This document shows positions 23,504 through 39,525 of a stretch of 64,000 nucleotides of DNA, piece by piece. A model generated the notes under the pieces. The model ran no database searches. It saw only the letters and a list, made by a program, of their open reading frames with translations, and was not told the origin of the DNA. The number at the start of each line of letters is the position of its first letter. Position 1 is the stretch's first letter. The position numbers and the translations under genes were made by a program. The stretch is from a virus: positions 1 through 64,000 of the IMG/VR virus record IMGVR_UViG_3300010354_015978, one strand, 5' to 3'.

Positions 23504-24224
23504 ACAAGGCTACATCATCCCGGCCTTCAATACCGATACCACAGATTATGAATCCTGTGCCCAAAGACTGCGGGATAGTCTGCTGCATTGGCATCCCAAG
23601 GCCAATGTCACGGTGATTACCACACAGGATCTGCCTCATGGCGATCAAGGTGGACAAGCCAACGACTGGCAGATGTTTGCAGCCAGTCCCTATCGAGAAA
23701 CCATAAAGTTAGAAGCCGACATGCTGGTCACAGGACCAGTGGATCACTGGTGGACAACGTTCCGCTTGCGCGATGTGGTAATCAGTCAGGGCTGCCGTGA
23801 TTATCATGGACAGCCCAGCCAGGCACGCGCTTATCGCAAGTTGTTTGACGCCAATCAGTTGCCTGATGTCTACAACGCCATTACCTATTGGCGCCTCAGC
23901 GCCACGGCCAAGCAATTTTTTGATCTCACCAAGTCAATCTGGCAGAACTGGAGCCAGTTCAAAACTCTGCTGAAGTTTCCAGACGAGTCTCCCACCACTG
24001 ATGTTGTGTATGCTATGGCGGCGCAAATCATGGGACCTGACACAGTGACTCTACCACCGGGCATGGGTCCCAGTATAGTACATATGAAGCGTGACATCAT
24101 CAAAGGCGCCGCCAAGGACTGGCGCGACCATTGCGTGTGGGAATGGCATGACGGTGTGTTGCGCATCAATACCATTTCACAGTGGGGATTCTTCCACTAC
24201 CACTACAAGGATTGGCAGCCATGA
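23487..24224 (+). CDS. GT-A-like glycosyltransferase, 245 aa
   Basis: Related in layout to the preceding gene. It has an N-terminal beta-alpha start (GYIIPAFNTDTTDYESCAQR), then TIKLEADMLVTGP (about residues 72-84), where the acidic EAD triplet sits at the place of the GT-A DxD motif. A region with NAITYWRLS and a C-terminal HMKRDIIKG segment follow. The start overlaps the upstream gene by 17 bases and the stop forms ATGA with the next gene. The acceptor is unknown; membership of the glycan island supports a sugar-transfer role. Confidence 0.55.
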   Translation: MPILAEQGYIIPAFNTDTTDYESCAQRLRDSLLHWHPKANVTVITTQDLPHGDQGGQANDWQMFAASPYRETIKLEADMLVTGPVDHWWTTFRLRDVVISQGCRDYHGQPSQARAYRKLFDANQLPDVYNAITYWRLSATAKQFFDLTKSIWQNWSQFKTLLKFPDESPTTDVVYAMAAQIMGPDTVTLPPGMGPSIVHMKRDIIKGAAKDWRDHCVWEWHDGVLRINTISQWGFFHYHYKDWQP

Positions 24225-24553
24225 ACAACAACGAGATATTTGAACAGTTCTGGCGCGACTACAAATGGCCTGATGACGTACCCGAGCCCGAATACCGATT
24301 GTATTATGATGAACAGGGCGAAGTCATTGCTTACACCACGCAAGACATGCCCGGTAAGTACTTGCGCATCACAGCACAGCAGTTCGCTCTAGCGGATCGA
24401 CGTGTGCAAGTCAAAAACGGGCAATTGATACCTCGTGCTGTGGGCTCCGTGCATAAGTTAGTGCCCGGCGATTCTGGTACCGCATGTCACGTCCACGACG
24501 TGGCCTTGGTAGTGAGCACAGATCAACAACATCAAAAATGGCATCGAAGATGA
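24221..24553 (+). CDS. Hypothetical protein, 110 aa
   Basis: Start chosen at the ATG that overlaps the upstream stop (ATGA); an upstream in-frame ATG at 24182 would run deep into the preceding gene. The sequence contains EPEYRLYYDEQGEVIAYT near residue 25, a pattern of a compact beta domain, and a C-terminal tail with HVHDVALVV. No known family recognised. It is part of an unbroken chain of overlapping genes, so an accessory role in the sugar or peptide modification pathway is likely but unproven. Confidence 0.6.
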   Translation: MNNNEIFEQFWRDYKWPDDVPEPEYRLYYDEQGEVIAYTTQDMPGKYLRITAQQFALADRRVQVKNGQLIPRAVGSVHKLVPGDSGTACHVHDVALVVSTDQQHQKWHRR

Positions 24554-25461
24554 AAGTAGATATCGCTGACCTTGACTGCATCTATTTGTCCTACGATGAA
24601 CCCCAGAAAGAAGAACACTGGGTACGCATCAAAAACATGGTGCCTTGGGCCCAGCGTGTGGACGGGGTAAAAGGCAGCGATGCTGCTCACAAGGCCGCGG
24701 CCTCCGCCAGCACCACTGAACGCTTCGTCTTGATCGACGGTGATAATTTACCCCAGACAGAATTTTTTAATCTCAGCCTTGACATCACAGATGACAACCG
24801 GGACTGTGTGTTCCGGTGGCGCAGCCGCAATCATGTCAATGCGCTGATGTATGGCAATGGTGGATTGAGTTCATGGACTCGACGGTTCGCTCACGACATG
24901 CGCACCCATGAAAACAGCGACGGCAGTGAAGAAACACAGGTAGAGTTCTGTTTTGATCCCCGGTATTGGGCCATGCATGATTGCTACAGCACTACCTATC
25001 CTAATGGCAGTGAGTTTCAGGCCTGGCGAGCAGGATTTCGCGAAGGTGTCAAGATGTGCTTGGATCGGGGGCGCAAGCCATCCTTGAGTGAGTTCCGAGA
25101 TCGTGTACACAAACGCAATCTCGATAACTTGACCGTCTGGCAAAATGTAGGGTGCGATGTTGAGCATGGCGCCTGGGCCATTGCCGGTGCCAGGCACGGC
25201 ACATGGAAATTGATGTGCACCGATTGGGACTATCGTGAAGTACAGGATTTTGATGCACTGCGTGGAATGTGGCATGCAGGCTTTGTCAACGAGCTCATAG
25301 AAGAATACGAACAGCCGTTGAGAGACCAATTGGGACTGCCCATGTGTTTGTTGACTCCGCAGCAAAGCAGGTTCTTCAAACAGCATTATCGCAGCGACTG
25401 GCAAAATCTCGGCGTCATGGTGCGCGAGATAGATGTGATTAGACGACAAGAAGGTTGGTGA
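24550..25461 (+). CDS. Glycosyltransferase-like protein, 303 aa
   Basis: The sequence DLDCIYLSYDEPQKEEHW (residues 6-23), followed by FVLIDGDN, is a glycosyltransferase-like nucleotide-binding start found in phage and bacterial glycan clusters; DGDN would be the DxD-type site. The middle has CVFRWRSRNHVNALMYGNGG, and the C-terminal half is Trp-rich. The start used is the ATG overlapping the upstream stop (ATGA); a longer form beginning at 24484 or 24538 is open but less likely. It ends one base before the epimerase gene. Substrate unknown. Confidence 0.6.
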   Translation: MKVDIADLDCIYLSYDEPQKEEHWVRIKNMVPWAQRVDGVKGSDAAHKAAASASTTERFVLIDGDNLPQTEFFNLSLDITDDNRDCVFRWRSRNHVNALMYGNGGLSSWTRRFAHDMRTHENSDGSEETQVEFCFDPRYWAMHDCYSTTYPNGSEFQAWRAGFREGVKMCLDRGRKPSLSEFRDRVHKRNLDNLTVWQNVGCDVEHGAWAIAGARHGTWKLMCTDWDYREVQDFDALRGMWHAGFVNELIEEYEQPLRDQLGLPMCLLTPQQSRFFKQHYRSDWQNLGVMVREIDVIRRQEGW

Positions 25462-25462: not shown

Positions 25463-26425
25463 ATGCGTATAGTTGTGACCGGAAGCGAAGGCAGTCTCAT
25501 GCAGGCTGTGATACCAAAACTCTTGGCCAATGGCCACGACGTGGTGGGCATTGACAATCTCTACAGATATGGCAAACGCAGCGATGCTGCTGGCAGGGAT
25601 TATGAATTCCATGAACAAGATCTCATAGACCGAGCAGCAACATTTTGTCTGCTGCGCGGCGCCGATGCTGTGATACATGCGGCGGCCAAGCTCTACGGCG
25701 TGCTGGGCCTGTTACACTACCGTGCGGACATCCTGGGCGATGATACTGCCATTTGCAGTAATGTCCTACAGGCCGCAGCGCATCATGGCATCAAGCGGGT
25801 GGTGTACATGAGTTCCAGCATGGTATATGACAGCAGCATCCAAGATGTCAACGTGCCCTTGGTCGAAGAGATGACCGATACCTGCCCTGTGCTCAAGACC
25901 GATTATGGTCTCAGCAAACTGGTTGGCGAACGCATGTGCGAAGCATTTCGTCAACAGTATGGACTTGAGTACACCATATGGCGTCCATTCAATGTGGTCA
26001 GCCCACACGAGGTCAGCATGACCGAACAGGGATTCAGCCATGTGCTGCCGGACTTCATCAACAACATCGTGGGCCGACAGTTGAATCCCTTGCCCATTAT
26101 CGGCAACGGTGAACAGATACGCTGCTTTACCTGGATCGATGATGTCGCAAAAATCATAGCGGACCACAGTTTTTGTGAGGCCAGCGCCAATCAAGTGTTC
26201 AATGTTTGCAATGTAGAGCCCACGCGCATGAAGGATGCTGCATGCATGGTCTTTGAAGCAGCCACAGGGCTTGATCGCAGTGAACTTAGGTTTGAAACCA
26301 CGCGCGACTACGAACACGACGTAAAAATCAGGATACCCAGCATAGAAAAACTACAGAGATTATTGGGACCGTTCGAATTTGTATCCACCAAGGAAAGCAT
26401 TCAACGATGCCTGGCACGAGTGTAA
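25463..26425 (+). CDS. NAD-dependent epimerase/dehydratase (extended SDR)
   Basis: Acts on a nucleotide sugar: epimerisation, dehydration or reduction with bound NAD(P). It begins MRIVVTGSEGSLMQAV, a Rossmann fold with TGxxGxx; the third glycine of the usual TGxxGxxG is replaced by Met13. SSSMVYDSS and YGLSK (the YxxxK pair) form the active site, followed by RPFNVVSPHE. Length (320 aa) is normal for extended SDRs. It starts one base after the glycosyltransferase-like gene and overlaps the next gene by 19 bases. The exact sugar is unknown. A second, unrelated-position epimerase is at 45468-46442. Confidence 0.85.
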   Translation: MRIVVTGSEGSLMQAVIPKLLANGHDVVGIDNLYRYGKRSDAAGRDYEFHEQDLIDRAATFCLLRGADAVIHAAAKLYGVLGLLHYRADILGDDTAICSNVLQAAAHHGIKRVVYMSSSMVYDSSIQDVNVPLVEEMTDTCPVLKTDYGLSKLVGERMCEAFRQQYGLEYTIWRPFNVVSPHEVSMTEQGFSHVLPDFINNIVGRQLNPLPIIGNGEQIRCFTWIDDVAKIIADHSFCEASANQVFNVCNVEPTRMKDAACMVFEAATGLDRSELRFETTRDYEHDVKIRIPSIEKLQRLLGPFEFVSTKESIQRCLARV

Positions 26426-27387
26426 TAAATGTACCCAACAATGATCAGCGAATTTGGAATCGCGATCAAATAGTGATAGAAATAACTCAGGCCGCAGCCC
26501 GGGGCGACGATATCGTTGTCAGGATGAACGGCGAAGGGCCCTGCGCGGCATCCTTGGGACTGTATGATATGCTGGATCAAATAGGATATGATCCCAGCAA
26601 GATATCGATTTCGACCTGCAATCTTTTGGAAACCCATGATAGGTATACAGTTGGCCTCACGGCCCCGGACAAGCATCTTGGATGGATTCAAGACACCATG
26701 AAGGCAGGTATACCCGGCAAAGTCATATCTGCCAACACCAAGCATTTTGGACATTTTGTGGGGCACGGTTCTCTGCCCAGACTGGCCATAGCCGCGCATC
26801 TTTGGCAAAATCATCGTGAGCGCAGTCTCCAGACATATCATACCACCATGACCGATCCCTATCACAGAGAGTGGGTGGCAATAGAGGATCTTTTGTTCTA
26901 CGGGTTCGGCGATCGACTAATCACACCCGCTCTTGATCTATTGCGCCATGCTCCCTTGACCTGGGACAGAAAGAATGTTGAACCCATCATGGACAGGATG
27001 ATGTATGGCATCGTTGGTGCCTATGATCATATATTTGTGGACATAGTATGCCATACCTACTACACTGGTCGAACATTCTATCTTGATGAAAAAATCTGGC
27101 GTCCCATAATGACGCGCACCCCATTTATGGCACACGGGCCACAAAACTTCATCCCTAATCTCCGGCGTCTGGGGTTCGAAACATTTGATCGCTGGTGGGA
27201 CGAAGGTTACAGCCAAGATCCCACTCATGTACAGATCTCGGCCGTGCTGGACAACATTGACATGCTGTCTCAGAAAACCACAAATCAACTAGAGATCATG
27301 TATAATGAGATGCAGCCAGTGTTGCAGCATAATTTTGATCTTTTACTCAGATTGACCCACAAAGATTTTTTCCGGGATTACACATGA
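26407..27387 (+). CDS. EKxxKP-type glycosyltransferase-like protein, paralogue A
   Basis: 326 aa. The C-terminal part carries LDEKIWRPIMTRTPFMAHG, followed by LRRLGFETFDRWWDEGY. This block is shared with three other proteins in the window (29465, 40547 and 41736), always as (T/D)EK-x-x-(K/R)P, an aromatic/hydrophobic pocket, L-x-x-x-GF-x-TF, D-E-x-Y. It resembles the C-terminal nucleotide-sugar domain of exostosin-like or GT-B transferases, but identification is by pattern only. The N-terminal part (DIVVRMNGEGPCAASLGLYD) is specific to this copy. It overlaps both neighbours, so it is part of the operon. Confidence 0.6.
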   Translation: MPGTSVINVPNNDQRIWNRDQIVIEITQAAARGDDIVVRMNGEGPCAASLGLYDMLDQIGYDPSKISISTCNLLETHDRYTVGLTAPDKHLGWIQDTMKAGIPGKVISANTKHFGHFVGHGSLPRLAIAAHLWQNHRERSLQTYHTTMTDPYHREWVAIEDLLFYGFGDRLITPALDLLRHAPLTWDRKNVEPIMDRMMYGIVGAYDHIFVDIVCHTYYTGRTFYLDEKIWRPIMTRTPFMAHGPQNFIPNLRRLGFETFDRWWDEGYSQDPTHVQISAVLDNIDMLSQKTTNQLEIMYNEMQPVLQHNFDLLLRLTHKDFFRDYT

Positions 27388-28079
27388 CATATATCTTTAC
27401 CGGTGACAGTTGGGCCATGAAGGCTTTCACCAATGAAAATTACAATACTGGATGGTATGAGGAAAGCGACTTCAGGCTCAGCGATGTCTGGGAAGTACCA
27501 TATCAAGGTGTTTATGCACCGGGGCGTGGCAATCTGGATGCCATGCGTCACGTACAGAATCTAGACAGCGATCGTCCCATTATCTGGGTCTGGACCGAAG
27601 TGGGGCGAGATTATGGGGAAGTTTACGATAGGCCTCCATACGAGTGGATGCAGAGAGATGATTTTTTCCGTATACGTGCCGATCTCACAGATCGTGTGAT
27701 GGCCACCATACGCAGCAACATCAAGAATCCCATTGCACTGATCGGCGGCCTTGGAGACTTTGATCCGGTCATGGCCTACGCACACGGTTTCCATGTGCTG
27801 CATCCCAGTTGGCAAAGGTTCATGTCTGAAAAATTACAAAGTAGATATTTCCAAATGGGATGGGGTGCAGGAGACATTGGTTGGCGGCAGGATTACAATG
27901 ACATCACGCCAGGGCCAGTGGCTACCTTTGCCTGGGACGAACAGATAAAAGAATGGTCCTGGTGGGAGCAAGAAGGATACATGTGTCACGAGCACCCTAC
28001 CCCATTGAGTTGCCGTGAATTCGGCGCCCACATCAAAGATCGAGTTCTGACATGGTTGGATCCTTATGAGCAAGGGTGA
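27384..28079 (+). CDS. SGNH-hydrolase-like protein, 231 aa
   Basis: Starts TYIFTGDSWAMKAF; GDSW is the block I motif of SGNH/GDSL esterases, with Ser as the likely nucleophile. GGLGDF near residue 114 and CHEHPT near 200 are candidates for the later blocks, where His would complete the site. Trp-rich and without a signal peptide, so cytoplasmic. SGNH proteins in glycan clusters often add or remove acyl groups. It is coupled to the upstream gene by an ATGA overlap and overlaps the first radical SAM gene by 14 bases. Another SGNH-like gene lies at 38713-39525. Confidence 0.55.
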   Translation: MTYIFTGDSWAMKAFTNENYNTGWYEESDFRLSDVWEVPYQGVYAPGRGNLDAMRHVQNLDSDRPIIWVWTEVGRDYGEVYDRPPYEWMQRDDFFRIRADLTDRVMATIRSNIKNPIALIGGLGDFDPVMAYAHGFHVLHPSWQRFMSEKLQSRYFQMGWGAGDIGWRQDYNDITPGPVATFAWDEQIKEWSWWEQEGYMCHEHPTPLSCREFGAHIKDRVLTWLDPYEQG

Positions 28080-29481
28080 TGAAGTAAATCAAGACTTCCG
28101 CAGCAAGTTCATGACTGATGCCGAGAGCATGCGCGAGCGCCTGGATGGTCGCAGCCCCAGTCTCTGCCTGGCCAAATGGAAACAGGTCAGCCTGCATCTC
28201 ACCACGGGACATACCAACTCCTGCTATCATCCGCCCTTGCACCGTATCACGCCCGAAGACGTGGCTCGTGATGTGTCGGGTATCCACAACACTGAACACA
28301 AGAAACAACAGCGTCGCATGATGCTGGCCGGTGAACGACCCAAGGAATGTCAGTACTGCTGGAACATGGAGGACCTTGGTCAGCTCAGTGATCGCCACTA
28401 CCGCAGCGGCGAGCCCTGGGCAGCCCTGGACTTTGATCGCATAGCCAACAGCACCGGTGATGAAGATTGGGTGCCCAGTTATGTTGAAGTCAACTTCAGT
28501 AACGCCTGCAATCTCCGATGCAGTTATTGTAGCCCGCAGTTCAGCACCAACTGGCAGCAAGAAGTCCAGCAGCACGGTGCCTATCCCACCTCAAAGCCAC
28601 ACAATGCGCCCGAACACTTTGAAGGCGAGCGCAGACCCATACCCAATCGAGACCATAATCCCTACCTTGAAGCATTTTGGCAATGGTGGCCGCGACTGTA
28701 TCCTGAACTACAGCATTTCCGCATGACCGGCGGCGAACCACTCATGGATCGCAACACCTATCGCGTGTTTGACTATGTGCTAGAGAATCCCAATCCACGC
28801 CTGCATCTCAACGTCACCAGCAACTTCAGCGTGGATGAACGTCTTTGGCAGAAGTACAAGGGCTATGTAAAGCGCCTTTGCGAAAATGACAACGTAGAAC
28901 ATTTCATGCAGTATGTGAGCCTGGACTCCTGGGGAGCGCAGGCTGAATACATCCGCGATGGTCTGGATTTTGATCTCTTGTGGGATCGTGTGCATCAATA
29001 TCTCACTGAGATACCTTATCGCAACAGTCTCACATTCATCATAACCATGAACAATCTGTCGGTCACGGGTCTCAAAACCCTGCTGGAAAACATCCTGGAT
29101 CTGCGCATGCGCTACAGCCACAGTTATCAGCGCGTATGGTTTGACACACCGGTGCTGCGACAACCGGCCTGGCAGAGCCTGCAGATCCTGCCTGAAAGTT
29201 ATCAGTACCGCATGCGCACCACGCTGGAGTGGATGCGCTACTTCCAGGAGACTCCGGAACGTAGATTCCAGGGCTTCAAGGACTATGAAATACAGCGCAT
29301 GGAACGTGACATAGACTGGATGAGCCAGCCACAGAATCGCACTGCCCGTGAAAAGAAAATGGCTGACTTCTACAGATTTTTCAACGAACATGACCGCAGA
29401 CGTGGCACAGACTTCTTGGCCACTTTCCCAGAGATGCGTGCCTGGTGGCAACAGTGTGAATTGCATGCCCGAGAAACTTAA
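28066..29481 (+). CDS. Radical SAM protein with N-terminal twitch-type Cys cluster, copy 1
   Basis: 471-aa radical SAM enzyme. The 4Fe-4S/SAM motif is CNLRCSYC (Cys148, 152, 155), followed by TGGEPL. An N-terminal cysteine set (Cys34, Cys53, Cys95 and Cys98, the last pair in CQYCWNMEDLG) precedes the core and should bind an auxiliary Fe-S cluster. This fits the family in which the twitch domain is N-terminal rather than C-terminal. The reaction is probably a radical oxidation or rearrangement on a sugar, cyclitol or peptide; the substrate is unknown. First of five paralogues, separated only by one EKxxKP glycosyltransferase-like gene. All overlap their neighbours. Confidence 0.8.
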   Translation: MSKGDEVNQDFRSKFMTDAESMRERLDGRSPSLCLAKWKQVSLHLTTGHTNSCYHPPLHRITPEDVARDVSGIHNTEHKKQQRRMMLAGERPKECQYCWNMEDLGQLSDRHYRSGEPWAALDFDRIANSTGDEDWVPSYVEVNFSNACNLRCSYCSPQFSTNWQQEVQQHGAYPTSKPHNAPEHFEGERRPIPNRDHNPYLEAFWQWWPRLYPELQHFRMTGGEPLMDRNTYRVFDYVLENPNPRLHLNVTSNFSVDERLWQKYKGYVKRLCENDNVEHFMQYVSLDSWGAQAEYIRDGLDFDLLWDRVHQYLTEIPYRNSLTFIITMNNLSVTGLKTLLENILDLRMRYSHSYQRVWFDTPVLRQPAWQSLQILPESYQYRMRTTLEWMRYFQETPERRFQGFKDYEIQRMERDIDWMSQPQNRTAREKKMADFYRFFNEHDRRRGTDFLATFPEMRAWWQQCELHARET

Positions 29482-30640
29482 CCTTGTAGTGGACACAATG
29501 AGTGAGGTTCATGGGCTACTCACGCCCTGGATCACACACGAATTCTGGAACTTCCAAGATCATGACATGATACCCGACAGCGTGTATGTGATTGGACGCC
29601 GGCAGTTCACTGAAAACTACGAACGCATACGTGACTTGGCACAGGATTCTAGATATACCATAGTGTTTGACAACGCCGCGGAAGGCAGCACCACGTTGGT
29701 AGCTCAATTGAGTGTGCTGCGCCTGCAAGAGTTGGTGTTGCAGGGGCGCATCTTGTTGATATCGGGCGGGGCGCTGCCACCGCAGTACCCGCACATCGTG
29801 TACGATCATTTCCTGTGCGAGATCACCAACTACGAAGAAAACATTACGGCCAGTCGGCGCATTGAAGAAATATTCAACTGGTACAAGAAACCCTACGATT
29901 TTCTTTTCCTCAACGGTCGCGCACGACCACACCGCAAGTATCTCTGGCAAAGACTCCAGCAGGAAAAGTTATTGGACCGGGCTCTCTGGACCATGCTGGA
30001 CAGCAGACCGGCAGTGGGAGCTGACTTCTCGCTACCCGGTGGCGCCTGGCGAGATCGCATGGCCGAACACACCACCATTAGGACTTTGCCTTACCGATAT
30101 GAATATCCTGAATGGCGCAACAGCGTGATCGTTCATGGTCCTGGGGGCGGCGGCTTTATCAAAAATCAGTTGTTCAACAACAAATGGGGCGAGATATATC
30201 TGCAGTCTGAAGCCTACATCGACACCTACTTCAGCCTGGTGACTGAAACTGTGTACGAGACGCACCAGAGCTTCCGCACGGAAAAAATAGCCAAACCCCT
30301 GCTGCAGGGCCATCCCTGGATCTGTGCCACGAATGCAGGTTTTTATCGCGACATGCATGACCTGGGATTCCGCACATTTCACGATCTCATTGATGAAAGT
30401 TTTGACACAATCGATCATCATCAGACACGCATGGATCGCATCTTGGATGTGGTACGAGATCTAGTGAAACAGGACCTCAACAAGTTCATCCTGGAGGCTC
30501 GGGACACATGCATATATAATCAGCAGCATCTACTGGAACTGGTACCGGATCTGCGCCAGCGATTCCCACAGCAATTTTTTAGGTTTGTCAATGAAAGACT
30601 TGGACTTCCGCAAACAAGTATTGGACACTATCAGCCCTAG
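29465..30640 (+). CDS. EKxxKP-type glycosyltransferase-like protein, paralogue B
   Basis: 391 aa from the ATG at 29465, which overlaps the upstream stop by 17 bases; a longer frame opening at 29348 is a shadow of the radical SAM gene. The C-terminal block is RTEKIAKPLLQGHPWICA, followed by DLGFRTFHDLIDESFD, matching the other three paralogues. The N-terminal half has FLFLNGRARPHRKYLWQRL, and a Gly-rich GPGGGGF precedes the conserved block. Predicted cytoplasmic GT-B-like transferase; the reaction is inferred from fold-like motifs and context. It sits between radical SAM copies 1 and 2. Confidence 0.6.
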   Translation: MPEKLNLVVDTMSEVHGLLTPWITHEFWNFQDHDMIPDSVYVIGRRQFTENYERIRDLAQDSRYTIVFDNAAEGSTTLVAQLSVLRLQELVLQGRILLISGGALPPQYPHIVYDHFLCEITNYEENITASRRIEEIFNWYKKPYDFLFLNGRARPHRKYLWQRLQQEKLLDRALWTMLDSRPAVGADFSLPGGAWRDRMAEHTTIRTLPYRYEYPEWRNSVIVHGPGGGGFIKNQLFNNKWGEIYLQSEAYIDTYFSLVTETVYETHQSFRTEKIAKPLLQGHPWICATNAGFYRDMHDLGFRTFHDLIDESFDTIDHHQTRMDRILDVVRDLVKQDLNKFILEARDTCIYNQQHLLELVPDLRQRFPQQFFRFVNERLGLPQTSIGHYQP

Positions 30641-31928
30641 TTTTTGTGGGGCCAAATGGTTCAATGCCACCATATGGCTGGGATCAGGCCAGACCACCAG
30701 TTGCCATCATCCCCCGGCACATGCCATTGATGTCACGGCCCTGGCTACCAACCCCAGTGCCATACACAACACTCCGCAAAAGAAACAAGATCGCGCGCAG
30801 ATGCAGCGTGGAGAACGTCCCGCAGGCTGTGAATACTGCTGGAAGATTGAGGACATGGGACGCGATGCTGTGTCGGATCGTGTGTACAAAAGCAAAATTT
30901 ATCCCATCCAGGATCTTCGCGAGGTGGCCGCGTCTGACCCCAACGCTGATGTCAATCTCAAGACCTTGGAAATCAGTTTTGATCGCACCTGCCAGTTCGC
31001 ATGTAGTTACTGCAATCCTGCCTTTAGTTCTAGTTGGGTGCGCGACATACGTCGTAACGGTGCCTATCAAGGTCTTGTCAGTGACGGGCGCAACCACTTC
31101 ACGCACGAACATGCCAGCAGTCAGCTTTACGGTATCAACGATGCCAACCCCTATGCTGATGCTTTCTTCCGCTGGTGGGAATCGGATCTGCACCAGACAT
31201 TAGACGAACTCAGGATCACGGGAGGCGAGCCCCTGATGTCGGGTTATACCTGGCGGCTCATTGACTGGTTCAAGTCCAATCGTGGCCGCAGCCGCACACG
31301 TCTGGCCATCAACAGCAACCTGGGATTTGACGCTGTACGCGCCGCAGAGTTCATCCATGCGGTGCGCGACATCCCCCACATCGAGATCTATACCAGCAAC
31401 GAAAGCACTGGTGCAAGAGCGGAATATATCCGAGATGGTCTGCACTGGGGCCAGTGGCTGCGCAATGTCAACACGCTGCTGGAACATGATCATATCCGTG
31501 CTGTCCATAGCATGTGCACCATATCGGCACTGTGTGTGCTGGATCTCCCCAACTATCTTGAAGAACTGGTTAGACTCAAACAAAGATTCGGGCGAGATCG
31601 CGTGAACTTCACTTTGAACATCTTGCGCTTCCCTAGTTTCCAATCACCCCTGGTGCTGCCCGATGATGCAAGATCCAGTGCGCGTGATGGTCTGGCTGAG
31701 TTCATGGTCAGGCACAAGGGACAGAGTTATTTGCATGAGCATGAGTGGCACCACATGCAGCGCCTGGTAGACTATCTTGATGTGGTAAAGACGCCACACA
31801 GCGAGGCGTTTGATCTCCCGCGGCTGCGTCACGACTTTGGCCGGTTTTTCCAGCAATATGATCAACGACGAGGCAAAAATTTTGCAGAAACTTTTCCAGG
31901 ATTAGCAACATGGTACCAGTCTCTTTAA
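30591..31928 (+). CDS. Radical SAM protein with N-terminal twitch-type Cys cluster, copy 2
   Basis: 445 aa from ATG 30591, overlapping the upstream stop by 50 bases. The radical SAM core motif is CQFACSYC (Cys134, 138, 141), with TGGEPLMSGY downstream. The auxiliary N-terminal cysteines are Cys19, Cys38, Cys80 and Cys83 (CEYCWKIEDMG). It is closest in layout to copy 1, sharing the HHPPxHxI and IHNTxxKKQ segments and an ERPxxCxYCW block. Copies 1 and 2 therefore look like a recent duplication, and copies 3-5 a second subgroup. Substrate unknown. Confidence 0.8.
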   Translation: MKDLDFRKQVLDTISPSFCGAKWFNATIWLGSGQTTSCHHPPAHAIDVTALATNPSAIHNTPQKKQDRAQMQRGERPAGCEYCWKIEDMGRDAVSDRVYKSKIYPIQDLREVAASDPNADVNLKTLEISFDRTCQFACSYCNPAFSSSWVRDIRRNGAYQGLVSDGRNHFTHEHASSQLYGINDANPYADAFFRWWESDLHQTLDELRITGGEPLMSGYTWRLIDWFKSNRGRSRTRLAINSNLGFDAVRAAEFIHAVRDIPHIEIYTSNESTGARAEYIRDGLHWGQWLRNVNTLLEHDHIRAVHSMCTISALCVLDLPNYLEELVRLKQRFGRDRVNFTLNILRFPSFQSPLVLPDDARSSARDGLAEFMVRHKGQSYLHEHEWHHMQRLVDYLDVVKTPHSEAFDLPRLRHDFGRFFQQYDQRRGKNFAETFPGLATWYQSL

Positions 31929-33622
31929 CCGCAGCACAGCAGCAGCTCGCGCAACAATTTGAAGTGTTGAGCGTGGTGGATCTAGACCAATGGCATACCA
32001 TGGACTATGAAACAGCACAACAATGGCTGTTATCACAATGTGAATCCTTGCACCGGGCCCAATACCAGGACAATCAACGGCTGGTGTTCCAGTTGACCCA
32101 GGGTGACTACTATGTGGCAGATAGCCGCGTGGGACTGATCCTGAGGAATTTACAAATCGTGTTGAATGAAGTTGACATCAGCAACTTTTTTGTTGTGTTC
32201 ATGAGTCCCAACCCCAACCTCATGGCAGAACTAGACATTATCCGACGTATCAGCAGCGACTCAGTACCCATTACTGGTGTCAGCGTGCAAGGTGAATGGA
32301 ACACTATAAGCCTGGCCCAGCACCCTGTGAGTCGCAAAGAAATATACCAGTATGGATCTTTGAATCCGGTCAAGATAGATCTCAATCAACTCAGTGAACA
32401 CGAAAACTTCTTGCTGACCCAATCCAAAGTTTTTTGCATATATCCATGGACTCACATACATGCATGGCCCACTGGGCAGGCTTTTCCTTGCTGCATGAGC
32501 GAACCCGCGGGACAAATTGGTGATACCAAGCAACAAACCCTTCGTGAAATCTGGAATGGTCCTAGCATGAGACAGTTGCGGCTGAACATGACCAGTGAAC
32601 GTCCCAGTGATGCCTGTACCAGATGCTATGAACAAGAGCAGGCAGGATTTTTTAGTGGCAGACTCAGCGCCAACAAACATCACGGACATCATGTGGACCG
32701 TGTGTTGGAGACACAAGCGGACGGCACCTTGGATCGATTTGAGATGACCTATTGGGACATTCGCTTCAGTAATCTGTGCAATCTACGCTGCCGTAGTTGC
32801 GGACACATATTCAGCAGCAACTGGTATCAGGATCAAGCTCGTCTTGCGGGACCCGAATGGAAGCGTGACAATCTACCCCTGAAGTACGCAGGTCGTCACG
32901 AGCTGGACATGTGGGAACAGTTGGAACCGCACCTGGACTATGTTGAACAGATCTACTTTGCTGGTGGCGAGCCCTTGCTCATGGAAGAACACTACCGCAT
33001 CCTGGAAGAACTAGTGCGGCGAGAGAAGTTCGATGTGCGCTTGATCTACAATACCAACTTCACACAGACCTATCTCAAGAACCGATCGGTATTTGAATAC
33101 TGGCGACAGTTCCGCAGCGTGGCCGTGGGAGCCAGCCTGGATGCGTCAGGCGACAGGGCCGAGTACATCCGCAAGGGCACAGACTGGGCACAGGTGGTGG
33201 AGAATCGCAGAGAGATGCTGCGGGTATGCCCCGAAGTGGACTTCTACATTTCACCCACGCTCAGCATCATGAACGCCTGGCACCTACCCGACTTCCATCG
33301 CGAGTGGGTGGATCTGGGCTTTATACGTCCACAGGATCTCAACGTCAACATCCTGCAAGACCCCCGACACTATCGTATAGATGTAGCCACAGCCGCTTAC
33401 AAAGAGAAACTGGAGCAGAGATTCCAGGATCATCTGGCATGGCTGCGTCCACAGGATCCATTGCAGCGCGCCACAGCGGGATTTGAAAGCGCCATCAAGT
33501 TCATGTGGGCCCAAGACAACACGCATCTATTGGATCAGTTCTGGGTGCGCACACGCCAATTGGACAGCATACGAGGAGAGCGCGTGTTGGCCTGGTTGCC
33601 GGAACTGGCGGAACTGGAATGA
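31910..33622 (+). CDS. Radical SAM protein with N-terminal twitch-type Cys cluster, copy 3 (long form)
   Basis: 570 aa. The radical SAM motif is CNLRCRSC (Cys290, 294, 297), followed by AGGEPLLM. The twitch-type N-terminal cluster is FCIYPWTHIHAWPTG (Cys176), CC at 194-195 and CTRCYEQE (Cys236, 239). Unlike the other copies it has an extra N-terminal domain of about 160 residues (with FVVFMSPNPNLMAELDI), which may bind a substrate or carrier. It overlaps copy 2 by 19 bases and is coupled to copy 4 by ATGA. The HxHAWPTG segment is typical of the N-twitch family. Confidence 0.8.
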   Translation: MVPVSLTAAQQQLAQQFEVLSVVDLDQWHTMDYETAQQWLLSQCESLHRAQYQDNQRLVFQLTQGDYYVADSRVGLILRNLQIVLNEVDISNFFVVFMSPNPNLMAELDIIRRISSDSVPITGVSVQGEWNTISLAQHPVSRKEIYQYGSLNPVKIDLNQLSEHENFLLTQSKVFCIYPWTHIHAWPTGQAFPCCMSEPAGQIGDTKQQTLREIWNGPSMRQLRLNMTSERPSDACTRCYEQEQAGFFSGRLSANKHHGHHVDRVLETQADGTLDRFEMTYWDIRFSNLCNLRCRSCGHIFSSNWYQDQARLAGPEWKRDNLPLKYAGRHELDMWEQLEPHLDYVEQIYFAGGEPLLMEEHYRILEELVRREKFDVRLIYNTNFTQTYLKNRSVFEYWRQFRSVAVGASLDASGDRAEYIRKGTDWAQVVENRREMLRVCPEVDFYISPTLSIMNAWHLPDFHREWVDLGFIRPQDLNVNILQDPRHYRIDVATAAYKEKLEQRFQDHLAWLRPQDPLQRATAGFESAIKFMWAQDNTHLLDQFWVRTRQLDSIRGERVLAWLPELAELE

Positions 33623-34830
33623 CTCTGCCTACACCCACATTCTGTGTGTTGCCATGGGTGAGTCTGGAGACGTCGCCCATTGGTACCGTGCGTCCCTGCT
33701 GCCTGGCCGAAGATGAGATCCGCGATGCCGCGGGCAACAAGTTCCATCTCACCACGGCCAGTCTACGTGACATACGTGACAGTGAATACATGCGTGACCT
33801 GCGCAGTAAGTTCCTGGAGGGTCAGCGTCCTGATACATGCCGCAAGTGCTGGCGCGAGGAGAACTCCGGGCGCACCAGCAAGCGCATGCACACCCTGGAT
33901 CGTCTCAAGCATCTGATCCAGGATCAGCCTTGGACGCAGGATGCGCGACCCTTGTTGTTCCTGGATCTCAAACTGGGCAACATCTGCAATCTCAAGTGCA
34001 GGATCTGCGGATCTTGGAGTTCCAGCACATTTGCAGCGGAAGAATTATCGGCACTGCCACACAGTCAACGCCGGCAGAGTTATCACTACGACATGGTACG
34101 CCAGGGCGCCTGGCCCAGGACCAGCGATCACTTCTGGCAGGAACTGGACACAGTCACGCCGGACATACGCTACATCGAGTTCACGGGGGGTGAGCCCTTC
34201 ATGATCGATCAACACTTTGATCTCCTGCAGCGACTGGTGGATCAAGGCCGTGCAGCCAATATCGAGATACACTACAACACCAATGGCACCATATGGCCAC
34301 TGCGCGGACCCGACATATGGCAGCATTTCCGCTTGGTGGAGATAGCGTTCAGTATCGACGATGTGGGTGAGAGATTTGAATATCAACGCAGCAACGCGGT
34401 GTGGCAGGAAGTGGAGCAAAACATCCAACGCTTCCGCGAGCTGCGGGATCGGTGCAACAATATCCAACTGCAGGTATGCAGCACAGTCAATGTGTTTAAT
34501 GTGATGTATCTTGATGAACTGGCTCGCTGGAACCGGGCACAGGGCTTTGACTTTGTGTATTGGAACATGCTGCACGAAGCCTTCTACTTCAGCATCAGCA
34601 CCCTGCCTGACCAGGCCAAGACACGTGTGGTGGAAAGCCTGCGCCTGGGCGATGTGCCCCAACAGGATCGTGACGAGTTCCAGCGCATCGAAACCTTTAT
34701 GTTGTCGGGACCCAGCCTGGATGGCCACATACTGCGCGGCAAGATACGCGAACTGGATCAGCGCCGTGGGCAGGATCTAAGACGTGTGGCGCCCGAACTG
34801 GCCGAGGCCATCCATTATGACGGTCCCTGA
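33619..34830 (+). CDS. Radical SAM protein with N-terminal twitch-type Cys cluster, copy 4
   Basis: 403 aa from the ATG at 33619 (ATGA overlap with copy 3). N-terminal cluster: FCVLPWVSLETSPIGTVRP with Cys9, CC at 27-28, and CRKCWREENSG with Cys74 and Cys77. Radical SAM core: CNLKCRIC (Cys123, 127, 130) and TGGEPFMI. This is the shortest copy and close to a minimal N-twitch radical SAM protein. It overlaps copy 5 by 14 bases. Substrate unknown; the tandem arrangement suggests stepwise action on one scaffold or alternative substrates. Confidence 0.8.
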   Translation: MTLPTPTFCVLPWVSLETSPIGTVRPCCLAEDEIRDAAGNKFHLTTASLRDIRDSEYMRDLRSKFLEGQRPDTCRKCWREENSGRTSKRMHTLDRLKHLIQDQPWTQDARPLLFLDLKLGNICNLKCRICGSWSSSTFAAEELSALPHSQRRQSYHYDMVRQGAWPRTSDHFWQELDTVTPDIRYIEFTGGEPFMIDQHFDLLQRLVDQGRAANIEIHYNTNGTIWPLRGPDIWQHFRLVEIAFSIDDVGERFEYQRSNAVWQEVEQNIQRFRELRDRCNNIQLQVCSTVNVFNVMYLDELARWNRAQGFDFVYWNMLHEAFYFSISTLPDQAKTRVVESLRLGDVPQQDRDEFQRIETFMLSGPSLDGHILRGKIRELDQRRGQDLRRVAPELAEAIHYDGP

Positions 34831-36115
34831 ACGTCCCCCGGGCCTGTGCATGGCGCCCTGGACCCACACCTATGTGAGTCCCCAGACCGAGCGCAGGATG
34901 TGCTGCGCCAGCCGCGAGCCCGCGCAAAACTTCCGCCAGTACATAGACACACAGGCAGGGTCGGGTCAATACCAGCCCATGACCCTGGATCAGCACTGGA
35001 ACAGCGAGCACATGAAAAGCGTGCGTCGCAGGATGATGACGGGCGAGACCCTGCCAGAGTGCGAGGTGTGCAACCATCGCTTGCTCAATACCGCGGTGTA
35101 TCGCGATTACTTCTGGCACTTGTTTGGTGATCGCTACAGCGAGATCTGGCAGCGGACCACTGCTGATGGCGAGACCGACATGCTGCCCGTGAGCTGGGAC
35201 TACAGGTTCAGCAACCTCTGCAACTTCAAATGCAGGATGTGTGGCGACATGCTCAGCAGCGCCTGGGAGAGTGAACAGCGCCAGCATGGCATGGTCAACT
35301 GGAACGATGCCAAGAATCACTGGATGCTGCCAGAAGTGCGTAGTCGCATCACTGAGTTCCAAGATCGTGAAATCGAGCGTGAGTTTGCCGAGGCTGTGGA
35401 ACAACATCGTGTGCAAGAAGTATACTGGGTGGGAGGCGAACCGCTCATGTACGAGCAGCACTGGCGCTACATGCGCCGCATCATAGAACTGGGAGACGGC
35501 GATCGTGTCTATGCAAGGTATAATACTAATCTCAGTCGCGTTGATTATCGCGGCTGCAATCTCTATCGTGACATACTGGACCATGTCAGAGACTGGCAAA
35601 TATGCGCCAGCCTGGACGGGACTGGAAGAATCGGGGAGTATATTCGTACAGGGCTTGATTTTGACAGTTGGTGTCGCAACTTTGAACAAGGACTCCAGCA
35701 CCAGCGACACCCCCGACAGATGCGCATAGACTTTACCTTGACTTTACCGGGCCTGTTTGAGACCGATGCCATACAGAAATTGGCACAGGGATGGGGAGTT
35801 GATGTATTGGCCAAGGTCATGTTTGCTTTTTCACCTGACATCATACTGAGTCCCTTGGCGCTGCCACGTGCCCTGCTGAACCGCCAATTGGACCGCTGTT
35901 TGACCACAGCGCAGGGCGCCATGCGCGATGTCCTGATGCAGTTGCGTGAGCGCCCCACGTTCCAAGAGCAGTGGCCCGACACCTGGCAGCAGGCGCTGCG
36001 CCAGGGACGTGACCGCATAGAACATCTGGAACGCATACGCGGCGATACATATACTTTGCGCGACATCCTGTCGCAAGATCCCGAACTCGAGGCCTGGTAT
36101 GAAGCAATTAGATGA
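34817..36115 (+). CDS. Radical SAM protein with N-terminal twitch-type Cys cluster, copy 5
   Basis: 432 aa from ATG 34817. Auxiliary cysteines are Cys11 (LCMAPWTHTYVSP), CC at 29-30, and CEVC (Cys82, 85). The radical SAM motif is CNFKCRMC (Cys135, 139, 142), followed by VGGEPLMY. It is the last of the five radical SAM paralogues. The stop overlaps the following hypothetical gene by 17 bases. As in the other copies, SLDGTGRIGEYIRTGLDFD corresponds to the conserved S(L/I)D...EYIR segment of the family. Substrate unknown. Confidence 0.8.
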   Translation: MTVPERPPGLCMAPWTHTYVSPQTERRMCCASREPAQNFRQYIDTQAGSGQYQPMTLDQHWNSEHMKSVRRRMMTGETLPECEVCNHRLLNTAVYRDYFWHLFGDRYSEIWQRTTADGETDMLPVSWDYRFSNLCNFKCRMCGDMLSSAWESEQRQHGMVNWNDAKNHWMLPEVRSRITEFQDREIEREFAEAVEQHRVQEVYWVGGEPLMYEQHWRYMRRIIELGDGDRVYARYNTNLSRVDYRGCNLYRDILDHVRDWQICASLDGTGRIGEYIRTGLDFDSWCRNFEQGLQHQRHPRQMRIDFTLTLPGLFETDAIQKLAQGWGVDVLAKVMFAFSPDIILSPLALPRALLNRQLDRCLTTAQGAMRDVLMQLRERPTFQEQWPDTWQQALRQGRDRIEHLERIRGDTYTLRDILSQDPELEAWYEAIR

Positions 36116-37160
36116 AATTCGCATAGAGCTGCATGCCTATGACTGGTATCCCGACGTCATGACAGTGTATGTGGATGTCTGGGACAACAGCCTAAGTCGC
36201 AAATGGTTGTCGGCACTTAATCATGCTCTGAAATCTGCACTGCATCTTGAAAAGAATTACTGTTTCATGGGCTGGCCCGATGCAGCACGCCATGGATGGT
36301 TCTTGTTGCAACAAATAAATCACAGCATCCGGGCCATCAATCACAGCGACGTCGGTTACAGCATCCAGGATCATTTCACCATGAATCAGCTGCTGGACGA
36401 CAGCGACAATCCTCGCCAGGAACGCATGAACGATCTGCATCGCTACTTTGAAGATCTGCAGGGGCATGCCGGCGCCATGAGTCAGTATTGGCAACGAGCC
36501 GATGATGTCACGCGCTGGCACATACGTCAACTCAACCTATTGTGTCATGAGTTTGAATCATGGGCTCTCAGTAATCGTCGCCGTCGTACAGCCCCCGAAT
36601 GGGTGAGACCCAGCCAACTCATGTGCTGGTTGCATTCGCCGCGATTTGAGCTGGAGCCCCAGGATCTTGAGCTGTTTGGTGTGGACACCATAGCGCGACC
36701 TCAGGGCGGTGTGTATGTGGGCGTGAACAAGGCCGTGGGCAAACATCATTGGGAAGTGTTCCGTGACGAGGGACGCGACAGCAGGATATCGGAACTAACC
36801 ACCACGGCACTACGCCCACAAACTCTGGCATCAGCAGACTTTGACATTGAGTGGGGCCAAGACACACGGGGGCAGCCCTGGATGCAGCAAGAGCTGGCAG
36901 ATTTCCGCCACTGGCTGACCACGAATGGGTTCGATCCCCAGGACCCCGGTCTCACCATTGGACACCCACAGGTGGGGCAAGTCAATCTCTTGCGCAGTTT
37001 CAAAACCAACGATGCCACGGAAATCATGAACCAGTTAGGACACTATCTTGACGTGGTCAGCATACATACCAGCACAGCCAGCGCATGGTACGACTACCAC
37101 TGGAGCGATGTGGGCTACGCTGCTCTACAGCAGCGAATATTATCAGGAAAAACATCATGA
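36099..37160 (+). CDS. Hypothetical protein, 353 aa
   Basis: Begins MKQLDEIRIELHAYDWYPDV; rich in Trp, His and charged residues, with no signal peptide, membrane segment or cysteine cluster. A central helical stretch (about 90-160) is followed by FELEPQDLELFGVDTIARPQ and by GVYVGVNKAVGKHHWEVF, which look like a folded beta domain. It directly follows the radical SAM copies (17-base overlap) and precedes a 33-aa protein by an ATGA junction, so it belongs to the same pathway. No family recognised. Confidence 0.65.
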   Translation: MKQLDEIRIELHAYDWYPDVMTVYVDVWDNSLSRKWLSALNHALKSALHLEKNYCFMGWPDAARHGWFLLQQINHSIRAINHSDVGYSIQDHFTMNQLLDDSDNPRQERMNDLHRYFEDLQGHAGAMSQYWQRADDVTRWHIRQLNLLCHEFESWALSNRRRRTAPEWVRPSQLMCWLHSPRFELEPQDLELFGVDTIARPQGGVYVGVNKAVGKHHWEVFRDEGRDSRISELTTTALRPQTLASADFDIEWGQDTRGQPWMQQELADFRHWLTTNGFDPQDPGLTIGHPQVGQVNLLRSFKTNDATEIMNQLGHYLDVVSIHTSTASAWYDYHWSDVGYAALQQRILSGKTS

Positions 37161-37258
37161 AATGGATAAAACGCATCATTGATCGCATACGATTGGAAAT
37201 CCGTTATCGTAAAAAACTGCGTGAACTGCGCAAAAGAGATCCCTTTATCTATAAATGA
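37157..37258 (+). CDS. 33-aa basic microprotein
   Basis: Begins MKWIKRIIDRIRLEIRYRKK and ends LRELRKRDPFIYK: a basic amphipathic helix with a short tail. It overlaps the upstream stop and the downstream start, each by an ATGA junction. That is good evidence that the frame is translated, because a chance frame would not fit exactly between two coupled genes. It could bind membrane lipid, nucleic acid or a partner enzyme. Similar short proteins ending in DPFIYK occur in other T4-like phages as I recall, with no known function. Confidence 0.65.
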   Translation: MKWIKRIIDRIRLEIRYRKKLRELRKRDPFIYK

Positions 37259-38739
37259 AGCACTATCTAGGTATCAGTGCTGGATTCCATGATGCTGCTG
37301 CCGCAGTGGTGCGCGAGGACGGTGAGATCCTGTTCGCCGGACACAGCGAACGCTACAGCAAACGCAAGAATGATGCCCACATACACTCTGGGCTGATCAA
37401 AGATCTCGATGCCTGGCAGTACGATGTAGTGGCCTTTTATGAACGTCCCTGGCTGCACAATGTACAGCAGTGGGTGTCAGGGCAGCGTGAGTGGGGCGCC
37501 TGGACCGTGCAAGGTGCCCTGCGGCAACAACTGGGCGACTGGGTGGATCGCATACCCCGGCAGCGGGGTTACGGGCATCATCTCAGCCATGCCGCAGCGG
37601 GCTTCCAGACGTCGCCATTCCGTGAAGCCACAGTGGTGGTGATTGATGCCATAGGCGAACTGGACACCATCAGCATATACCGTGCCTGGTACGATCAGGC
37701 AGGCCGTGCGCAGTATCGCAGGCTGTGGCGCTCGGGATATCCACACAGCATTGGGCTGTTCTACAGCGCAGCCACTCAACGCTGCGGCCTGCGAGCCCAG
37801 GAAGAAGAATACATCACCATGGGCATGGCTGCCTATGGCACACCGCGCTGGCAACTGGACATGCGTCAGGCCTTGATCACGCATGATCATGATCGTGTGT
37901 TGTTCCGAGAAAACCTGCACACCGGTTGGCCACAGGATCTCCTGCGCGATGCCACAGCAGAGGACATAGCAGCCTCGGCGCAGCAGCTCACGCAAGACAT
38001 GGTCTTGGACATCATGCGCCTGGCTCGCACGATCACGGACAGCCGCAATCTAGTGTACATGGGCGGCGTGGCCCTGAACTGCGTGATCAACAGCCAGTTG
38101 GGACGCATCTGGGACGATGTCTGGATCATGCCCAACCCCGGTGACGCTGGATCAAGCCTGGGCGCAGCGGCCCTGGCACATGGTGGCCCCTTGCACTGGC
38201 GCACGGCATTCCTGGGGCACAGCATCGCAGGGGAATATCCGGTACGAGCCTTGCTGCATGAACTGGAGCAGGCCGGCATGGTGGGTGTGGCGTCAGGACG
38301 CGCGGAATTTGGACCCAGAGCCCTGGGCAATCGCAGCCTGCTAGCGGACCCACGTGGCCCAGATATCAAGGACAAGGTAAATGACATCAAAAGACGACAA
38401 CGATTCCGACCATTTGCGCCGGTCATTCTGGAAGAACATGTTCATGACTACTTTGCTATGCCTAGCGGCTGGAATCACAGTAGGTACATGCAGGTCGTCG
38501 CTGATTGCCGGCGTCCTGACCTATATCCTGCTATCTGTCATGTTGACAACACTAGTCGTGTACAGACTGTTGCGCAGGATGGATCTGGGATACGACGGCT
38601 GCTAGAGGCCTGGTATCAGCGCACCGGCTGTGCTATGCTGTTGAACACTTCCTTGAACATCCGAGGTGAGCCCATGGTCAATGACCGCGTGGATGCAGCC
38701 AGGTTCACGCGCCTATACGGGGTCAGGGTCCTGGGCTAG
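37255..38739 (+). CDS. Carbamoyltransferase (NodU/CmcH/TobZ type)
   Basis: Transfers a carbamoyl group from carbamoyl phosphate, through a carbamoyl-adenylate, to a hydroxyl group of a sugar or similar acceptor. The N-terminal YrdC/Kae1-like domain starts YLGISAGFHDAAAAVVREDG, with GHSERYSKRKND and GHHLSHAAAGF (His108, 109, 112), which bind metal and nucleotide in this family. The C-terminal domain has EFGPRALGNRSLLADPR, then RFRPFAPVILEE and LLNTSLNIRGEPMV. Length (494 aa) is slightly below the usual 550-600 aa. It is the last gene of the plus-strand operon; its 3' end overlaps the convergent SGNH gene by 27 bases. Carbamoylation is common on aminoglycosides and Nod factors. Confidence 0.9.
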   Translation: MKHYLGISAGFHDAAAAVVREDGEILFAGHSERYSKRKNDAHIHSGLIKDLDAWQYDVVAFYERPWLHNVQQWVSGQREWGAWTVQGALRQQLGDWVDRIPRQRGYGHHLSHAAAGFQTSPFREATVVVIDAIGELDTISIYRAWYDQAGRAQYRRLWRSGYPHSIGLFYSAATQRCGLRAQEEEYITMGMAAYGTPRWQLDMRQALITHDHDRVLFRENLHTGWPQDLLRDATAEDIAASAQQLTQDMVLDIMRLARTITDSRNLVYMGGVALNCVINSQLGRIWDDVWIMPNPGDAGSSLGAAALAHGGPLHWRTAFLGHSIAGEYPVRALLHELEQAGMVGVASGRAEFGPRALGNRSLLADPRGPDIKDKVNDIKRRQRFRPFAPVILEEHVHDYFAMPSGWNHSRYMQVVADCRRPDLYPAICHVDNTSRVQTVAQDGSGIRRLLEAWYQRTGCAMLLNTSLNIRGEPMVNDRVDAARFTRLYGVRVLG

Positions 38740-39525
38740 ACCTCGCGCACGCAGCGCCGGCAACAGGTGTTGACGCGTCCATGCCAAATTGGCCTCTATG
38801 GTGGGATGCTGGGTATGATCTAGTTGGCCCATGGACATGGCATAGTCTCCAATGGGCAGCACAGTGCGCATGAGATCGCCCACGCGCTGGCTCAAGGCGC
38901 CCGGTATCACTGCAAGATCTGGTGTGGGATCTTTCCAGCTCATGAACATCCATTCAAAGCCGCGGCTTTCTAGATAACCTGCCAGGGCCACGATGTTGAT
39001 CATGCTTTGTAATACCTGCGAGTCTGCATCGATTACTCGCTTGTAATGATTGCGCATCTGCACTATGGGATCTTTATCATCCCGGGCTACATCTCGCCAA
39101 TTTTCGATCTTGAGTGTGCTGAATCTATCATTGAATCTATATACCCCGTCTGTGACATCTCGATTTTGAATGGAAAGATATGCACGTCGCGTCCAGGGTT
39201 CTACCAAGGCTGTTTCGGCTATGACATCAGTGCGTGTCATGCCTGACCACATCACTATGACCAGGGTGTTGTGTGGTGATACCAAGGGGTTGTTTTCGCA
39301 CTCGTTGATGATGCTGTTGTATATGTGTTGGCAACCACCACCCGACAGCGACACATCTAAAACCCGCTGGAACCCCGCCAGGTCCCGTAGATAATAGGGC
39401 CAATTCACCACGTGTTTGTTGGCGTGGTTGTGTGTGAAACTGCACCCGCTGACCAAGAGGTGTGCATGGCGACTTTGGGTTTCGGCAGCCAGTGTGCGGG
39501 GAGGATCGCGGTGATAGTGTGTCAT
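38713..39525 (-). CDS. SGNH-hydrolase-like protein, 270 aa
   Basis: Start chosen at ATG 39525, which overlaps the upstream gene's stop (ATGA). The segment LLVSGCSFTHNHANK (about residues 23-37) has the GxSxT block I of SGNH enzymes. SLSGGGCQHIYNSII supplies the block II glycine, and LVIVMWSGMTR corresponds to block III. A C-terminal D-x-x-H pair is visible in MGQLDHTQHPTIEAN. Cytoplasmic and probably an acyl esterase or transferase on a sugar. It is convergent with the carbamoyltransferase gene and last in a minus-strand operon starting at 42836. Confidence 0.6.
   Translation of the reverse strand: MTHYHRDPPRTLAAETQSRHAHLLVSGCSFTHNHANKHVVNWPYYLRDLAGFQRVLDVSLSGGGCQHIYNSIINECENNPLVSPHNTLVIVMWSGMTRTDVIAETALVEPWTRRAYLSIQNRDVTDGVYRFNDRFSTLKIENWRDVARDDKDPIVQMRNHYKRVIDADSQVLQSMINIVALAGYLESRGFEWMFMSWKDPTPDLAVIPGALSQRVGDLMRTVLPIGDYAMSMGQLDHTQHPTIEANLAWTRQHLLPALRARGLAQDPDPV

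Follow-up and report, generated by a model that had tools for sequence, protein, structure and literature searches.

The window analyzed here, the 64,000-nucleotide stretch formed by bases 1 to 64000 of the 110,675-base IMG/VR virus record IMGVR_UViG_3300010354_015978, carries five genes (R1 to R5) encoding radical S-adenosylmethionine (SAM) enzymes with an N-terminal twitch (N-twitch) domain. R1 to R5 differ from one another, have been inherited together as a set of old origin, and form the conserved core of a gene island. They are linked to genes for probable glycosyltransferases, nucleoside diphosphate (NDP)-sugar enzymes, an O-carbamoyltransferase, and an amidinotransferase, and to fiber genes. 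These surroundings probably serve glycan chemistry in some form. The explanation that we prefer, with confidence just short of even, is that the island is a multistep radical glycan pathway with an acceptor on the virion, probably resulting in fiber decoration. More tentatively, the five enzymes may act in sequence to produce a carbamoylated, possibly amidinated, radical-modified fiber sugar, using a cassette that is shared with Bdellovibrionota.

A preliminary description of this DNA, made from the letters and open reading frames (ORFs) alone, reported five ORFs on the plus strand at 28066-36115, each with GGEP, a CxxxCxxC core, and further cysteines near the N terminus, the last of them in a CxxC, and assigned them to the N-twitch family; both points were borne out. 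All five proteins match the NCBIfam model NF033640 (N_Twi_rSAM, twitch domain-containing radical SAM protein; model length of 398, curated cutoff of 170 bits) with 286 to 391 bits and cover about 390 to 398 of the 398 model positions. The N-terminal cysteines, in a C...C or CC...CxxC layout, lie upstream of the CxxxCxxC core and GGEP; in R1 they are C34, C53, C95, and C98, followed by the core C148xxxCxxC155. The Pfam domain SPASM (PF13186) matches the N-terminal stretch of R3 to R5. The predicted structure of R4 (predicted local distance difference test [pLDDT] score of 93) has a radical SAM fold, with Foldseek E values of about 1e-6 to viperin, CteB, and anSME. R1 to R5 are thus apparently intact radical SAM enzymes, predicted from their sequences to cleave SAM to 5'-deoxyadenosine.

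IMG/VR relatives were confirmed for R3 (158), R1 (424), and R4 (167), and 80 were kept per query. The resulting 241 loci, including that of Vibrio phage K566, were reduced to 135 nonredundant groups by shared DNA. Because contigs entered the collection through their similarity to R1, R3, or R4, the counts given here describe carriers and not prevalence among phages. The four N-terminal and three core cysteines, together with GGEP, are kept in 100% of the 113 to 132 nonredundant orthologues per family, and this invariance argues against a chance motif set. The preliminary description had allowed that the N-terminal cysteines might not be conserved in homologues, which was not the case in any of these groups. 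It had counted four to five such cysteines; four are conserved, enough for one cluster, while the count of five arose from the CC doublet in R3 to R5.

The reported overlap of all five genes with their neighbors holds, by a few bases, for R2 to R5 and the gene that follows, but not for R1, which ends 16 bases short of the next gene. R1 and R2 are not adjacent, being separated by a glycosyltransferase-like gene (29498-30640). Start sites of R4 and R5 were refined by eye from alignments and gene overlaps and are most likely the ATG codons at 33619 (ATGA overlap) and 34817, respectively, rather than upstream GTG codons. Part of the R3 orthologues (50 long R3 ORFs) carry a 170-amino-acid N-terminal extension; in the window this domain occupies 31910-32420, and a similar domain is present in three R4-type ORFs of other contigs.

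The paralogues in the window are 21 to 36% identical to R1. In a tree of 106 sequences, each of the five types, comprising copies from the window, other IMG/VR records, and marine phage-like contigs, split off with support of 98 to 100, and bacterial N-twitch genes joined the families at their bases. The suggested division into copies 1-2 and 3-5 was recovered, with R1 and R2 in one clade (SH-like approximate likelihood ratio test support of 99) and R3 to R5 across that branch. Diversification after duplication, if understood as a recent or phage-level event, had to be abandoned, as the five old clades rule it out. Since the types form separate clades and all five also occur in one gene cluster of a Bacteriovoracaceae metagenome-assembled genome (MAG; G006, contig 41), they are older than the phage lineages compared. 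That cluster holds relatives of R2, R5, R4, R3, and R1 beside obg- and lgt-like genes; representatives of R1, R2, and R3 occur in an Oligoflexia MAG. The fiber-to-R layout, with the order R1-R2-R3-R5-R4, also appears on contigs assigned to Pelagibacter, TMED41, and Rickettsiales bins, and from the fiber genes present on these contigs we infer that they are most likely phage. It had further been considered that the copies might belong to families with known separate substrates, but no copy maps to one.

Gene order is likewise strongly conserved. R1 to R5 are present in 120 to 132 of the 135 groups, and order was compared in the 106 groups that retain six or all seven of the core genes (R1 to R5, g36099, and the carbamoyltransferase gene). 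The full series R1, R2, R3, R4, R5, g36099, and carbamoyltransferase was found in 85 groups and the series without only its last gene in 9 more; 2 groups begin at R2, and the remainder carry one extra copy, so that 96 of 106 keep the order overall. Genes from R2 to g36099 abut or overlap, with median gaps of -4 to -19 bases. Strict co-occurrence and order fit the earlier proposal that the enzymes may carry out stepwise radical chemistry on one scaffold. Five larger contigs (317 to 349 kb) have 9 to 11 N-twitch matches each.

The genes around the core point to glycan chemistry, and a DegT aminotransferase and two epimerases round off the sugar set. The carbamoyltransferase (37255-38739) is related to GdmN, NovN, and TobZ, for which structures are in the PDB, and the product of the gene at 39522-40559 is related to arginine:glycine and inosamine-phosphate amidinotransferases. 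The protein g36099, directly after R5, gave a model with a pLDDT of 91 that has neither a sequence nor a fold match in the PDB, and its BFVD relatives are uncharacterized phage proteins only; judging from the model, it may be an orphan fold that merits structure determination. Between core members, gene content differs among contigs and includes glycosyltransferase-like genes, epimerases, GDP-mannose dehydratase, UDP-sugar dehydrogenase, GHMP kinase, cytidylyltransferase, methyltransferases, and GDSL proteins. A PNP_UDP_1 (PF01048) gene, read as a methylthioadenosine/S-adenosylhomocysteine nucleosidase, occurs in 8 groups (L120:19329-19892, L164:15262-15825, and six more), in most cases between R4 and R5, and a SAM synthetase occurs in the islands of 2 groups (L164:18960-20060 and L083:19859-20953). 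In a scan of 13 records, PF01048 was found in 4 and SAM synthetase in 1, and neither was found in the window's own record. Because radical SAM enzymes are inhibited by 5'-deoxyadenosine, which has to be cleared (PMC8102628), the nucleosidase-like and SAM synthetase cargo would fit active enzymes.

Baseplate and fiber-like genes lie upstream on the plus strand. The island is preceded by a tail-fiber-like gene (19691-21394) in 94 of the 135 groups and by the conserved plus-strand run g21407-g22443-g22745-g23487-g24182-g24484. The products of g22745 and g23487 are glycosyltransferase candidates with a weak match to glycogenin, a GT8 enzyme. Searches of Pfam and of solved structures gave no match for g24484 or the TEKxxKP proteins, which are therefore called glycosyltransferase-like by motif alone.

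Relatives of this gene set in isolates are rare. Matches to R3 or R1 in 50,697 phage records were confined to Vibrio phages K566 and K567 and one fragment. K566 has six N-twitch matches, two of them above the cutoff, with GT8- and GT4-like proteins between them (by eye). In Bdellovibrionota, by contrast with the control loci, N-twitch genes keep company with glycan genes: N-twitch genes above the cutoff were found in 73 of 241 genomes, and 20 N-twitch loci were compared with 20 control loci of the same phylum. Glycos_transf_2 accounted for 10 of the 136 neighbors of the N-twitch loci, while no glycosyltransferase family was among the 25 families listed for 136 control proteins. Genes of the g24484 type were present at 8 of the 20 N-twitch loci and none of the 20 controls, and g24484-type or carbamoyltransferase genes were present at 9 versus 0 loci (Fisher p=0.001, uncorrected for kinship). 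One genome (G173) has, downstream of pheT, the phage-like order g21407-g22443-g22745-g23487-small gene-g24484-N-twitch-N-twitch, with a low G+C fraction of 0.35 to 0.44 against about 0.46. This region (L332:7061-18376, G173 contig 21) is either a domesticated cassette or a piece of phage, and the contig end is nearby. A general linkage of fiber and radical SAM genes in Bdellovibrionota failed, having been found in 1 of 241 genomes, and a connection with Bdellovibrio MAT fibers (PMC10769870) was dropped for that reason. Bdellovibrionota genomes have up to 23 N-twitch matches (e.g., G003), and their N-twitch genes often lie beside another conserved radical SAM protein (NYDFxxIPFD...).

A pathway consistent with these genes would begin with soluble glycosyltransferases assembling an oligosaccharide in the cytosol. 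R1 to R5 would then successively alter its sugars, for example by deoxygenation, oxidation, epimerization, or C-C bond formation, while the N-terminal cluster would play an auxiliary part, either transferring electrons or binding the substrate. Further groups, carbamoyl and amidino among them, may be attached after these steps. The acceptor would likely be a virion fiber protein such as g21407, modified before assembly; a g21407 homologue adjoins glycosyltransferase and N-twitch genes in one bacterial genome.

Several observations weigh against a fiber glycan pathway. The nearest solved structures are mixed and comprise peptide enzymes (SkfB, CteB, anSME), viperin, and sugar-type enzymes (BlsE, DesII, BtrN); as these relatives spread over peptide, nucleotide, and sugar enzymes, the structure of R4 does not decide the substrate. 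Distance matrices of R1 to R5 correlate only moderately (0.26 to 0.68 in a mirror-tree comparison, in which R3 is disturbed by its variable N terminus), so that some reshuffling of the set between phages may have taken place. A pagP gene lies a few kilobases from the K566 N-twitch cluster and would suit envelope changes. The fiber gene g21407 accompanies N-twitch enzymes in G173 only among the 241 genomes, and as the G173 contig ends soon after the cassette, a phage fragment is possible. No glycosyltransferase gene lies directly between the five radical SAM types of the Bacteriovoracaceae cluster; GT2, kinase, and nucleotidyltransferase genes (by eye) lie a few kilobases upstream, beyond obg.

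It is possible, but on balance unlikely, that the island instead remodels the host envelope, making or altering sugars of the host lipopolysaccharide or O-chain with the host supplying export and ligation; one benefit might be to keep out competing phages. A host-envelope role has been proposed for the glycosyltransferases of pelagimyophage host-recognition clusters (PMC7029224). Besides pagP near the K566 cluster, inspection by eye revealed a bacterial N-twitch locus beside O-antigen ABC exporter-like genes (L270) and an R5-type gene between glmU- and glmS-like genes (L290). However, polytopic membrane proteins are absent from the 445 cargo ORFs, as are flippases and lipid-linked priming transferases, whereas 42 of 479 bacterial ORFs encode polytopic proteins; none of the 32 window proteins has a transmembrane-like segment. 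Loci for envelope polysaccharides are marked by a flippase, a polymerase or an ABC exporter, and by a lipid-carrier transferase, but neither the cargo nor the window encodes a polytopic protein, and the absence of such proteins among the variable genes suggests that the target is probably cytosolic. Furthermore, the island is fixed behind fiber genes, and the fiber accompanies the cassette in one bacterium.

Direct radical modification of side chains in fiber or virion proteins, in the manner of SPASM peptide maturases and with the glycosyltransferases serving separately, appears improbable. The SPASM match at the N terminus of R3 to R5, the presence of the peptide enzymes SkfB, CteB, and anSME among the closest solved relatives in sequence and fold, and the fiber genes adjoining the island would all agree with it, but the sugar-modifying BlsE, DesII, and BtrN are about as near, and the Bacteriovoracaceae cluster is without this kind of fiber gene. 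Given the gaps between R2 and R5, a small precursor gene cannot fit there. No conserved candidate for a precursor of a ribosomally synthesized and posttranslationally modified peptide was found in cargo of at least 90 amino acids, shorter ORFs near R1 not having been searched. The one small protein in the bacterial cluster is a Sel1/TPR-like secreted protein (by eye). Least likely of all, R1 to R5 would have five unrelated jobs on separate substrates and would be neighbors only because the region gathers auxiliary genes: solitary R5-type genes (L289, L290) or pairs of R5- and R4-like genes (L287, L288) in Bdellovibrionota, the many N-twitch matches per genome there, and the only moderate matrix correlations would suit this, but strict order and overlapping ends persist in about 100 groups while the surrounding genes vary, and marine phage-like contigs, as well as one bacterium, carry all five types jointly.

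Several known systems come close to this gene set. R1 to R5 share the order of N-terminal twitch and radical SAM domains with NF033640, nearly over its full length; the search output gives no function for that model, whereas here a conserved phage gene set contains five constant types of it, each an orthologous family. The island brings together relatives of enzymes that tailor antibiotic sugars, namely radical SAM enzymes (BlsE, DesII, BtrN), O-carbamoyltransferases (TobZ/GdmN/NovN), and an amidinotransferase (StrB). The auxiliary domain of those radical SAM enzymes is C-terminal or missing. Antibiotic pathways make small molecules, whereas here five N-twitch enzymes occur with many glycosyltransferase-like genes in a virus. 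Virions of chlorella viruses are glycosylated, and we know of no radical SAM pathway in virion glycosylation of either these viruses or mycobacteriophages. In such systems, virus-encoded soluble glycosyltransferases act on virion proteins, while the glycosyltransferases of the island are candidates. Mycobacteriophage virion glycosylation is known from Freeman 2023, as cited in PMC12619734.

Aside from the N-twitch family itself, what is already known is the presence of radical SAM cassettes beside fiber genes in pelagimyophage host-recognition clusters, mentioned in passing in PMC7029224. As far as the passages found describe them, those clusters are alike in having fiber genes followed by glycosyltransferases and radical SAM cassettes, and marine loci L252-L254 show the same layout with R1 to R5; they differ in that these passages say nothing of five enzymes forming a core, of the order in which they stand, of a counterpart in bacteria, or of partner genes. 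The preliminary statement that no phage pathway of this kind had been described therefore stands for the literature searched, with the qualification that the cassettes had been noted before. In that literature, whose coverage of journals was incomplete, nothing was found that describes the set of five enzymes or its order, partners, and bacterial counterpart.

Radical SAM enzymes perform some of the hardest chemistry in biology. The maintenance of five different ones in strict order in about a hundred nonredundant phage contigs implies a product that repays the cost. If this product is a fiber glycan, phages make their own unusual sugars, which would shape host recognition or hide them from defenses, and a largely uncharacterized radical SAM family gains a function. 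As K566 and K567 are isolates with a related set, the question is testable in a virus already in hand. The finding may also bear on the viral auxiliary genes annotated as 'ahbD' (K22227) in viromes, the function of which has been called speculative (PMC9301287); some may be misnamed N-twitch proteins.

Table 1. Features of the window, with positions, strands, and the evidence for each assignment (groups out of the 135 nonredundant groups unless another total is given)
Feature	Position	Strand	Evidence
Baseplate wedge subunit, 1169 amino acids (structural context)	5..3514	+	PHROG 10646, E=8e-287
Tail-fiber-like protein with Peptidase_G2/IMC-type chaperone stretch, 567 amino acids	19691..21394	+	Weak Pfam PF11962; PHROG tail fiber/virion families
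g21407, Ser/Thr/Gly-rich fiber-like protein, candidate acceptor	21407..22402	+	Follows fiber gene in 106/135 groups
g22443, conserved 101-amino-acid protein between fiber and glycosyltransferase genes	22443..22748	+	110 groups; also in bacterial cassette
g22745, GT8-like glycosyltransferase candidate (LDADY motif)	22745..23503	+	120 groups; weak glycogenin match, E=0.006
g23487, GT8-like glycosyltransferase candidate (LEADM motif)	23487..24224	+	123 groups; same profile, glycogenin E=0.006
g24484, YDEP...DGDN protein, probable GT-A-type glycosyltransferase by motif	24538..25461	+	126 groups
NAD-dependent sugar epimerase/reductase (variable cargo)	25463..26425	+	PF01370, E=9e-44
TEKxxKP...GFxTF glycosyltransferase-like protein (variable cargo)	26407..27387	+	43 groups; weak relative of 29498-30640 (alignment A8)
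R1, N-twitch radical SAM enzyme	28066..29481	+	NF033640 328 bits; 7 Cys in 132/132 groups
TEKxxKP-type glycosyltransferase-like protein between R1 and R2	29498..30640	+	113 groups
R2, N-twitch radical SAM enzyme	30585..31928	+	NF033640 293 bits; 7 Cys in 122/122 groups
R3, N-twitch radical SAM enzyme	31910..33622	+	NF033640 391 bits; 7 Cys in 121/121 groups
R4, N-twitch radical SAM enzyme	33619..34830	+	NF033640 348 bits; 7 Cys in 120/120 groups
R5, N-twitch radical SAM enzyme	34817..36115	+	NF033640 286 bits; 7 Cys in 113/113 groups
g36099, conserved protein directly after R5	36099..37160	+	109/135 groups
O-carbamoyltransferase (NodU/TobZ/GdmN type)	37255..38739	+	PF16861/PF02543; PHROG 1601; PDB relatives; 96 groups
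GCSFT-type SGNH-like protein (variable cargo; by motif)	38713..39573	-	Similar cargo in other loci
Arginine amidinotransferase family (AGAT/StrB-like)	39522..40559	-	PDB 1JDW 68 bits, 1BWD 45 bits; 62 groups
TEKxxKP-type glycosyltransferase-like protein	40547..41752	-	58 groups; weak relative (alignment A8)
TEKxxKP-type glycosyltransferase-like protein	41736..42836	-	57 groups; weak relative (alignment A8)
DegT-family sugar aminotransferase	44378..45643	-	PF01041, E=4e-61
NDP-sugar dehydratase/epimerase	45468..46442	-	PF01370/PF16363

Outside the window, the record holds a sixth N-twitch copy (87319-88428, minus strand, 218 bits) and a seventh (105046-105879, minus strand) that at about 54 to 56 bits falls below the NF033640 cutoff. 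Near the sixth copy lies a gene for a QueE-like radical SAM protein (by eye; G000, 84.9-85.8 kb; L009:4894-5790). Within the window, a tmRNA-like gene and 24 tRNA genes are located on the minus strand at 53078-63556.

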